A stretch of 64,000 bases of DNA from Meiothermus sp. (GTDB taxonomy: Bacteria; Deinococcota; Deinococci; Deinococcales; Thermaceae), in NCBI RefSeq assembly GCF_026004055.1, contig NZ_BPIJ01000001.1, forward strand, positions 744,001 through 808,000, given 5' to 3'. Below the pieces are notes generated by a model that did not search any database, was not told the origin of the DNA, and was given only the letters and a program-made list of their open reading frames with translations. Position numbers and translations under genes: made by a program. This document shows, one piece after another, positions 39,532 to 42,900 of this stretch. Each line of letters starts with the position of its first letter. Positions within the stretch are counted from its first letter, which is position 1.

Positions 39532-39966
39532 ATGCCGGAAGTAGTCTCCGAACTCTTCATCCCCAAACCCCCATCAGAAGTCTATGCGGCCGCCCGCGAC
39601 CTGGCCGGGCTCAAGCCCTATCTCAAGGATGTAGAAACCCTCGAGGTACTAGAAGACCACGGCAGCACCTCGCGTACCCGGTTTGTGGCGGTTGCCATGG
39701 GCAAAAAGGTGCACTGGATTGAGGACGAGCGCTGGTACGACGCCGAGCTTCGCAACGAGTTCGACAGCAAAGAGGGCGACTTCGAGGTCTATCGGGGCTC
39801 CTGGACATTTTTGCCCGAAGGCGAGGGTACCAAGGCCGTGCTCAGGCTCGAGTACGAACTCAACATTCCCATCTTTGGTGGCCTGCTGCAAAAACTGGTC
39901 AAAAAACTCATGCAGGAAAACATAGACGACCTGCTGCGCGGCCTCAAAGAGCGCTGCACCGCTTAG
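39532..39966 (+). CDS. SRPBCC (START-like) domain protein, cyclase/RatA type
   Basis: A 144-residue protein of the polyketide-cyclase/RatA branch of the SRPBCC fold: VVSELFIPKPPSEVYAAARDLAGLKPYLKDVETLEVLEDH, WTFLPEGEGTKAVLRLEYELNIPIFGGLLQKLVKKLMQENIDDLLRGLKERC. It has a hydrophobic pocket for a ligand. ATG 39532 is 6 nt after TAAACT, probably leaderless. Role unknown. Confidence 0.88.
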   Translation: MPEVVSELFIPKPPSEVYAAARDLAGLKPYLKDVETLEVLEDHGSTSRTRFVAVAMGKKVHWIEDERWYDAELRNEFDSKEGDFEVYRGSWTFLPEGEGTKAVLRLEYELNIPIFGGLLQKLVKKLMQENIDDLLRGLKERCTA

Positions 39967-39973
39967 GTTGTGC

Positions 39974-39979
39974 TACACT
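39974..39979 (+). promoter_or_regulatory. -10 box of the cysS leader
   Basis: TACACT, 6 nt before the ATG of the short leader ORF. No convincing -35 hexamer, which is common for leaderless promoters in this window. Confidence 0.45.
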
Positions 39980-39985
39980 AAAGCC

Positions 39986-40009
39986 ATGCTTTTTGCTCCG
40001 CGATGTTAA
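39986..40009 (+). CDS. Seven-codon leader ORF before cysS (MLFAPRC)
   Basis: ATG to TAA encodes MLFAPRC, ending in a single Cys codon. It begins 6 nt after a -10 box, so it would sit at the 5' end of the cysS transcript. A terminator follows 13 nt later. A Cys-sensing leader peptide is plausible but unproven, since one Cys codon is weak evidence. Confidence 0.4.
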   Translation: MLFAPRC

Positions 40010-40021
40010 GGACGTAATTCT

Positions 40022-40064
40022 GCCGGGGTCATGGTGTGCTTTGGGCCTCCATCCCGGCTTTTTT
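40022..40064 (+). terminator. Intrinsic terminator in the cysS leader
   Basis: GCCGGG (40022-40027) pairs with CCCGGC (40053-40058), extended by ATGG/CCAT past a small bulge and followed by six T (40059-40064). It could act as an attenuator or simply end the upstream SRPBCC transcript. A perfect 13-bp pairing (TTTTTGCTCCGCG, 39990-40002, with CGCGGAGCAAAAA, 40081-40093) encloses it. Confidence 0.65.
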
Positions 40065-40176
40065 CATAGCCCGCCGCAGCCGCGCGGAGCAAAAAATCGC
40101 CTTCGCTGCCCCCGGCACAGGCAACTCGACAACCCCACCCACACAAATAGTTTGCCAGCCCTAACGGAGCCTCACC

Positions 40177-41631: not shown

Positions 41632-42900
41632 CTATGGCGTCAGGCGGTGGCGGTCTCGAGGGAAGGCCCGCGCATAACGCACGTTGGGCAGGCCCACCAG
41701 CTTCTGGGTGAGGCGCTCGGCCCCAATGGCAAAACCGCCGTGGGGGGGCATTCCGTACTTGAAGACCTCGAGGTAGCCAGCAAAATGGGCGGGGTCGTGG
41801 CCTTTTTTCTTGAGCTGCTCGACCAGCACTTCGTACTGGTGCACGCGCTGCCCGCCGGAGGTGATTTCCAGCCCCCTAAACAGCAAATCGAAGCCCCGGG
41901 TAGAGCCTTGGCCCTCGGGGTACGCGTAAAAAGGCCTGGCCGCTTCGGGATACTTGGTAATGAAGAGGAAGTCCACACCCCACTTTTCTTGGGCCCAGGC
42001 CCCCAAGGCTCGCTCGGCTTCCTCGTTGAAGTCGGCCCCCACCGGCATGCCTAGCTCTTCACGCAGGATGCGGCGGGCCTCGGCGTGCTCGAGGCGGGGC
42101 ATCTCGGCCACATTGGGCCACTCTACCTCGAGCAAGGCGCACTCGCCGGCGGCGCTGTGCCGGGCTTCCTCCAGCATGGCGCGCAAAAGCTCTTCCTCGA
42201 GGTCGATCACATCGTTTTCGGACTCGATAAAGCCCATCTCCACGTCGAGCGAAAGGTATTCGTTGAGGTGACGGCTGGTTGCGTGTTGCTCGGCCCGAAA
42301 AACCGGGGCAACCTCGTAAACCCGCTCAAAAACCCCCACCATAATCTGCTTGTAAAGCTGGGGGGACTGGGCGAGGTAGGCCCGGTGCTCGAAGTAGTCG
42401 ATACCAAACAGGTTGCTGCCCCCTTCGGCCCCTGCCGAGACAATCTTGGGGGTGAAAATTTCGGTAAAACCCTGGCTGTCCAGGTACTGGCGAAACCCCC
42501 GCACCAGGGCCGCTTGTATTTTCAGGGGGGCGCGGGCTTTCTCTCCCCGCAGGCTCACATAGCGATACTCTAGGAGCGTCTCGGGGTTCACCCGCCATTC
42601 TTCCTTGGGAATCTCGATGGGGCTGGGCTCGGCCGCTTTAGCGTAGAACTCGAGGTCCTGGGCTATCACCTCATAGCCCCCTGGGGCTTTGGGGTTGGCC
42701 ACCACCTGCCCCACCACCCGCATCGAAGACTCGGCCAGCGGTAACTCAAAGCGTTTGTCCACCACCACCTGCACAATACCGCTCCGGTCACGCAAAAGGG
42801 CAAACTGAATTCCCCCAAGGTCGCGCTTCCAGTGCAAAAAACCCTGGAGGCTAACGGTCTGGCCCACATACTGGGCAATTTGGCTGGCAAGGGCTCTCAT
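41632..42900 (-). CDS. aspS: Aspartyl-tRNA synthetase, archaeal (nondiscriminating) type
   Basis: A 422-residue class IIb synthetase lacking the bacterial GAD insertion; bacterial AspRS has about 580 residues. Motif 2 region VYEVAPVFRAEQHATSRHLNEYLSLDVEMGF and motif 3 GGFAIGAERLTQKLVGLPNVRYARAFPRD are clear. Thermus has such an enzyme (AspRS2), which charges both tRNA-Asp and tRNA-Asn; Asn-tRNA is then made by GatCAB. It is convergent with cysS and lies beside an asparaginase. Confidence 0.92.
   Translation of the reverse strand: MRALASQIAQYVGQTVSLQGFLHWKRDLGGIQFALLRDRSGIVQVVVDKRFELPLAESSMRVVGQVVANPKAPGGYEVIAQDLEFYAKAAEPSPIEIPKEEWRVNPETLLEYRYVSLRGEKARAPLKIQAALVRGFRQYLDSQGFTEIFTPKIVSAGAEGGSNLFGIDYFEHRAYLAQSPQLYKQIMVGVFERVYEVAPVFRAEQHATSRHLNEYLSLDVEMGFIESENDVIDLEEELLRAMLEEARHSAAGECALLEVEWPNVAEMPRLEHAEARRILREELGMPVGADFNEEAERALGAWAQEKWGVDFLFITKYPEAARPFYAYPEGQGSTRGFDLLFRGLEITSGGQRVHQYEVLVEQLKKKGHDPAHFAGYLEVFKYGMPPHGGFAIGAERLTQKLVGLPNVRYARAFPRDRHRLTP

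Follow-up and report, generated by a model that had tools for sequence, protein, structure and literature searches.

A short upstream reading frame with a CGA-TGT codon pair and an adjacent terminator form a candidate Cys-tRNA-sensing leader of cysS in Meiothermus

Results

In the window, by which we mean the whole 64,000-nucleotide stretch of Meiothermus sp. DNA that was analysed, a 210-nt leader separates a small gene (39532–39966) from cysS, which shares 89–91% identity with its counterparts in Meiothermus taiwanensis and M. hypogaeus. The small gene matched no NCBIfam family; at the loci of both Meiothermus and Calidithermus it keeps its place immediately 5′ of cysS. Downstream, a gene for a non-discriminating aspartate--tRNA(Asn) ligase (41632–42900, minus strand) is convergent with cysS. 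The features of the leader are listed in Table 1. An earlier reading, made from the letters alone and called the sequence-only reading here, had noticed a −10 box 6 nt before an ATG, a seven-codon ORF with Cys as its last codon and, after it, a GC hairpin with six T. All three are present as described: the box reads TACACT, the ORF (uORF) can be read directly and the stem of the hairpin begins 12 nt past its stop codon. The 112 nt between the terminator and cysS (40065–40176) are not conserved, the corresponding stretch measuring 42–154 nt in relatives.

Table 1. Features of the cysS leader, with positions in the window.
Feature	Position	Strand	Basis or remark
Extended −10 promoter element TGC-TACACT	39971–39979	+	TG 39971–39972, TACACT 39974–39979
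uORF MLFAPRC-stop (ATG CTT TTT GCT CCG CGA TGT TAA)	39986–40009	+	conserved in phylum
5′ arm of the 13-bp perfect inverted repeat (TTTTTGCTCCGCG), within the uORF	39990–40002	+	this genome only
CGA-TGT (Arg-Cys) codon pair, proposed cysteine sensor	40001–40006	+	codon conservation in uORFs
Spacer from uORF stop to terminator stem, 12 nt	40010–40021	+	constant spacing in relatives
Intrinsic terminator	40022–40064	+	sequence, terminator scan, inner-helix covariation
3′ arm of the 13-bp repeat (CGCGGAGCAAAAA), beyond the terminator in a variable region	40083–40095	+	sequence
Shine-Dalgarno-like GGAG of cysS	40166–40169	+	sequence
cysS, cysteine--tRNA ligase, 481 aa	40177–41622	+	TIGR00435, 480 bits, cut-off 340

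A consensus scan with a compulsory −35 element gave no match in the leader. The motif TGNTANNNT is found at an equal distance from the start in most related leaders, and a −10 box about 6 nt ahead of the start codon recurs throughout them. As the extended −10 element ends only 6 nt before the uORF ATG, the mRNA is probably leaderless, a word that stands throughout for a prediction from sequence. Judged by this spacing, the transcription start would most likely fall at or adjacent to the A of the uORF ATG.

cysS was found in 106 of 111 Deinococcota genomes, with no leader of Deinococcus itself among them, and 60 upstream stretches were extracted beyond the family loci. The comparison set comprised the 74 cysS upstream regions of non-Thermus Deinococcota; a uORF was called where TANNNT was followed, after a gap of 5–9 nt, by an ATG or GTG opening a frame of at most 40 codons. 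A predicted leaderless short ORF containing Cys was present in 63 of the 74 regions (dinucleotide shuffles: mean 4.2, maximum 8), one with Arg-Cys or Cys-Cys in 61 (mean 0.75, maximum 5) and an in-frame CGA-TGT in 53 (mean 0.03, maximum 1); the genomes are related and the counts are therefore not independent events, yet uORF lengths and nearly all other residues differ. By group, an Arg-Cys or Cys-Cys uORF occurs in 15 of 18 Meiothermus regions and in both regions each of g2 and g3 (Calidithermus); by family it occurs in 10/10 regions of f4, 26/34 of f5, 3/4 of f2 and 3/4 of f3. All four f3 uORFs contain Cys, that of L134 as two separate codons. A tally over the upstream regions places the uORF in 25 of 30 genera. 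Among 62 cysS upstream regions from other phyla, which served as outgroups, two had a Cys uORF, one had Arg-Cys or Cys-Cys and none had CGA-TGT, counts no higher than in their own shuffles.

Within the phylum the uORF is missing in g5 and in Thermus (15 of 15 examined: L111–L118, L171–L175, L178 and L179). There a TATAAT-like box lies a few nt ahead of the start codon of cysS itself, and the gene appears leaderless. Three Meiothermus genomes (L102, L103 and L104) have lost the Arg-Cys uORF, L103 retaining MASPRQC. Because the Cys uORF recurs at the same place across the phylum, the local sequence is more than chance. The sequence-only reading had proposed a cysteine-responsive leader of cysS and had named homologous leaders without the ORF or its Cys codon as evidence that would count against it. 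On comparison, the 61 regions of 74 that keep Arg-Cys or Cys-Cys point the other way, and the phylum-wide recurrence of such uORFs lends the proposal support.

Conservation reaches down to the choice of codons. Downstream of an extended −10 element and a start codon, CGATGT stands in frame in 51 of 51 cases, with CGA at any position from codon 5 to codon 34. The Arg codon preceding Cys is CGA in 50 of 52 uORFs (AGA once, CGG once), versus 4 of 119 for Arg codons elsewhere in them (Fisher p 8e-36, the genomes not being independent); it is therefore the codon that is kept, not merely the residue. The preference holds in peptides with several Arg residues, such as MKRPARRC, MRPARRCRR and MRSLRPGRRCRARRRR, and the Cys codon is TGT in all 52 Arg-Cys uORFs. 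Totals for the pair differ slightly between analyses owing to differing filters. As for general codon use in the window, CGA accounts for 8% of 998 Arg codons and TGT for 29 of 85 Cys codons. The pair CGA-TGT is seen a single time among 14,129 codons.

The uORFs of f2 and f3 have no CGA ahead of Cys and mostly carry two to four Cys codons in a row (for example LCCRP, LCCCCT and LCCCPRVRVA); such runs are also seen in a few f5 uORFs, and the uORF of the window has a single Cys. That TGT-TGT runs take the place of CGA-TGT in f2 and f3 points to Cys as the signal. These runs also fit the idea that CGA might stand in for additional Cys codons. CGA is read through an inosine-adenine wobble pair. 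It was translated slowly when put in the his leader (PMC4046918). We infer that the ribosome responds more sharply to the next tRNA while CGA occupies the P site. The objection, raised in the sequence-only reading itself, that one Cys codon is weak is countered by the conserved pair.

The outer stem of the terminator pairs GCCGGG (40022–40027) with CCCGGC (40053–40058) and is followed by six T (40059–40064); the inner helices are ATGG/CCAT and GC(Y)/(G)GC. A terminator scan detects the hairpin. With 0.9 such sites expected by chance per 1.1 kb the scan alone is not decisive; conservation is. The outer helix is invariant and hence uninformative for covariation. The inner helices covary (4 pairs, 6 cells), to an extent that none of 500 shuffles reached, and sliding the partner lowers the score. 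Each of the 20 f1 leaders that have a Cys uORF carries a terminator, versus about 4 in shuffles, and in L102, L103 and L104, where the uORF is eroded or lost, the terminator is altered or gone as judged by eye. The distance from uORF to hairpin is nearly fixed: of the 19 Meiothermus, g2 and g3 leaders, 17 have 12 nt between stop codon and stem and two have 13 nt. In the same leaders uORF length varies by whole codons, with 76–80 nt from the start to the end of the T-tract. A second ORF inside the hairpin (ATG GTG TGC, MVC...) was also considered. It was discarded because its start or Cys codon is altered in L091, L095 and L101; its bases follow the stem.

In the other families the picture differs. 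Only 1 of 10 f4 and 1 of 26 f5 leaders with a uORF have an intrinsic terminator, so terminator occlusion cannot be the general mechanism there. Ribosome stalling hardly alters the computed access of the cysS start in f4 and f5 either, and Rho as their output route is a guess. For the Meiothermus leader, too, the computed accessibility of the cysS start is essentially unchanged by stalling; a Shine-Dalgarno sequence sequestered by the fold and released by a stalled ribosome was rejected on this count. The fold of the leader as a whole is not unusually stable (z −0.07).

We propose that the leader is a transcription attenuator of cysS that senses Cys-tRNA and in which the ribosome blocks the terminator directly, a reading to which we assign a probability of roughly 60%. 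That the leader senses cysteine appears well supported by the comparison of genomes, which also bears out its putative parts: the uORF with its codon pair and reading frame, the constant spacing and the terminator. To complete the scheme, initiation would be leaderless, and a ribosome stalled at the Cys codon would occlude the terminator directly, in place of an antiterminator. RNA polymerase would begin at the uORF ATG or directly beside it, and a 70S ribosome would load straight onto the nascent 5′ end and arrive, beside the stop codon, at the slow pair of CGA (a rare Arg codon) and UGU (Cys) that ends the uORF. With ample Cys-tRNA the ribosome would be done and released before RNA polymerase reached the U-tract; the hairpin would form and transcription would stop near 40064. 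With scarce Cys-tRNA the ribosome would wait, its P site on CGA, its A site on UGU and its front about 5 nt from the stem base; the hairpin would be blocked and polymerase would read through to cysS, which would replenish charged tRNA-Cys.

The toeprint distance of a ribosome is about 16 nt. By this arithmetic about 5 nt would remain between leading edge and stem while CGA is in the P site, and about 2 nt once the ribosome is at the stop codon. Given a single Cys codon, and a ribosome that is even nearer the hairpin when at the stop codon, the switch would have to rest on dwell time and not on position. Ribosomes in E. coli almost completely repress a terminator that lies a few nt past a stop codon, and full termination returns only at a distance of more than 27 nt (PMC4824070). 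This spacing effect and the 12-nt gap lead us to prefer the reading in which the time spent on the uORF, set by Cys-tRNA, would decide whether the hairpin folds.

Classical attenuation, in which the choice between terminator and antiterminator hairpins falls to a segment exposed or masked by a stalled ribosome, would make use of the same terminator, itself backed by covariation. The segment could act for example through pairing of the pyrimidines at the end of the spacer with the GGGG of the stem, or through the 13-bp arms, and a 6-bp hairpin of the type GATCCC-gcc-GGGGTC is possible in 5 of the 19 leaders. However, a search of all upstream-to-hairpin pairings gave none between the hairpin and either uORF or spacer that was common to more than 7 of the 19, which leaves a conserved antiterminator without support; moreover, with 36 nt ahead of the stem and a ribosome on top, hardly any RNA would be free. 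We therefore regard this explanation as unlikely. Copies of the palindrome CTCGAG are found in the uORF and in or next to the terminator arms of L134, L136 and L137 (f3) and of L131 and L132 (f2). Because these repeats in uORF and terminator could pair either way, alternative pairing is possible, and the f2 and f3 lineages may possess a true antiterminator.

The 13-bp arms had been put forward as a perfect long-range pairing that encloses the terminator. The pairing is present and perfect, and it is longer than in all 500 local shuffles (longest 11), in a window that contains 8 perfect inverted repeats of such length. But the arms were found in one genome only, being absent from the cysS leaders of relatives, and the proposed occlusion does not need them; as a conserved switch they were rejected. 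In this species they may or may not be of importance. The other suggestion made for them, that they are the inverted repeats of a small element, did not hold up in a DNA search, which gave no other copy in the genome.

A different cause of stalling would be the nascent peptide, an Arg-Cys end arresting termination at the stop codon in response to free cysteine. TnaC provides an analogous arrest that responds to tryptophan, and Arg-Cys right before the stop is invariant in those Meiothermus, g2 and g3 uORFs that retain the pair. Yet many f4, f5, f2 and f3 uORFs have further codons after Cys (MRSLRPGRRCRARRRR, MRPLRPQTARCRPAQPATFRPAF and MKPSALCCCPRVRVA), the residues upstream of Arg-Cys vary freely and the Arg codon is conserved beyond the residue alone, all of which makes peptide arrest improbable.

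We give little credence to the idea that CGATGT is kept for the AUG that overlaps it in another frame, whether for re-initiation or for a second ORF coupled to cysS. The exceptions AGA-TGT, CAA-TGT and CGG-TGT do retain NTG-T as well, and in the related f4 leaders L121, L122 and L123 an ORF of 20 codons stops 8 nt before cysS, at the Shine-Dalgarno sequence; coupling is possible in these three only. Otherwise the second ORF is erratic, running from 3 to more than 60 codons, differing between sister species and lacking a common end, and f2 and f3 are without the CGATGT string; with neither length nor end conserved, it was rejected. Finally, a plain terminator of the upstream gene next to a meaningless short ORF is barely conceivable: that gene does end 8 nt before the −10 box, but frame, codons and spacing are conserved over 25 genera.

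Discussion

Set beside the attenuators of trp, his and leu, the cysS leader likewise places, ahead of the gene, a short ORF that includes a codon for the amino acid under control and, in this clade, a terminator between ORF and gene (f4 and f5 being mostly without). It has no mutually exclusive antiterminator hairpin, as no pairing is shared. By its sequence it would thus work like an attenuator, and membership of the classical class fails on the antiterminator.

A comparable arrangement is uORFC-8-2, described for Rhodobacterales only, in which a short Cys-codon ORF and an intrinsic terminator precede cysS and ribosome-mediated attenuation is proposed; two tandem Cys codons, mainly UGC and usually at positions 14–15, lie inside the first of two stems (PMC8632094). 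The Meiothermus leader likewise combines a short Cys-codon ORF with an intrinsic terminator upstream of cysS. It differs in having one UGU after CGA, in being predicted leaderless and in its single hairpin past the uORF; tandem Cys codons in the first of two stems are not matched by the leaders of the Meiothermus clade. Mycobacterial leaderless polycysteine sORFs upstream of cysteine genes were reportedly described by Canestrari in 2020, with ribosome pausing as the signal; they are reported to have runs of Cys codons, to control access to the ribosome-binding site and to act at several loci as one group. Common to both is a short ORF with Cys, leaderless by prediction in our case, upstream of a cysteine gene. 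Unlike the mycobacterial sORFs, the Meiothermus leader has one Cys codon, a terminator, unchanged Shine-Dalgarno access and one locus.

Candidate cys leader peptides of Actinobacteria contain runs of Cys codons and stand upstream of cys operons, with no terminators (PMC1262725). The present leader resembles them as a candidate Cys leader peptide, but precedes cysS and has a terminator. The likeness to actinobacteria drawn in the sequence-only reading thus stands in principle and not in detail, since those leaders have tandem Cys codons and the mycobacterial ones no terminator. As in pyrBI and in tR2 constructs (PMC4824070), a nearby upstream ribosome would prevent folding of the hairpin; the signal is UTP in pyrBI and experimental design in the constructs, whereas Cys-tRNA supply is proposed here. 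Rfam gave no match, whether at the gathering score or with the E-value limit relaxed to 1, and the T-box covariance model was unmatched.

The cysS leader would then be a form of ribosome-mediated attenuation that differs from the known Rhodobacterales and mycobacterial leaders, which use tandem Cys codons. In the literature searched, outside which lay most subscription papers, no such leader is described for Deinococcota, and the comparison suggests how cysS is likely to be regulated in this phylum, where that literature gave no such regulation. Across the Deinococcota families compared, a synonymous codon, CGA, is under selection before the sensing codon; this implies that sensing may rest on a codon pair rather than on a codon run. 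More tentatively, and with odds somewhat against it, one could envisage a phylum-wide attenuator in which a single CGA-UGU pair would replace the run of control codons, steric occlusion would replace the antiterminator and CGA in the P site would cause hypersensitivity to the next tRNA. At about 80 nt and without an antiterminator, the leader would rank among the simplest transcription attenuators proposed, and it would offer a clean test case for occlusion of a terminator by the ribosome and for P-site wobble effects in vivo.

The leader seems to belong to cysS alone. In this genome the leader pattern with the GCTANANT box matched cysS and one further site in apparent coding DNA only. The matches inspected as candidates for other genes with the same leader (L180, L186 and L190) lie apparently within coding DNA, the remaining TGYTGY matches in the genome showed no in-frame Cys run of a leader, and cysK itself is probably leaderless. 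Over the 111 genomes, matches outside cysS were near the level of the reversed-pattern control. With pattern matches essentially limited to cysS, we regard the leader as private to this gene, unlike the mycobacterial set.
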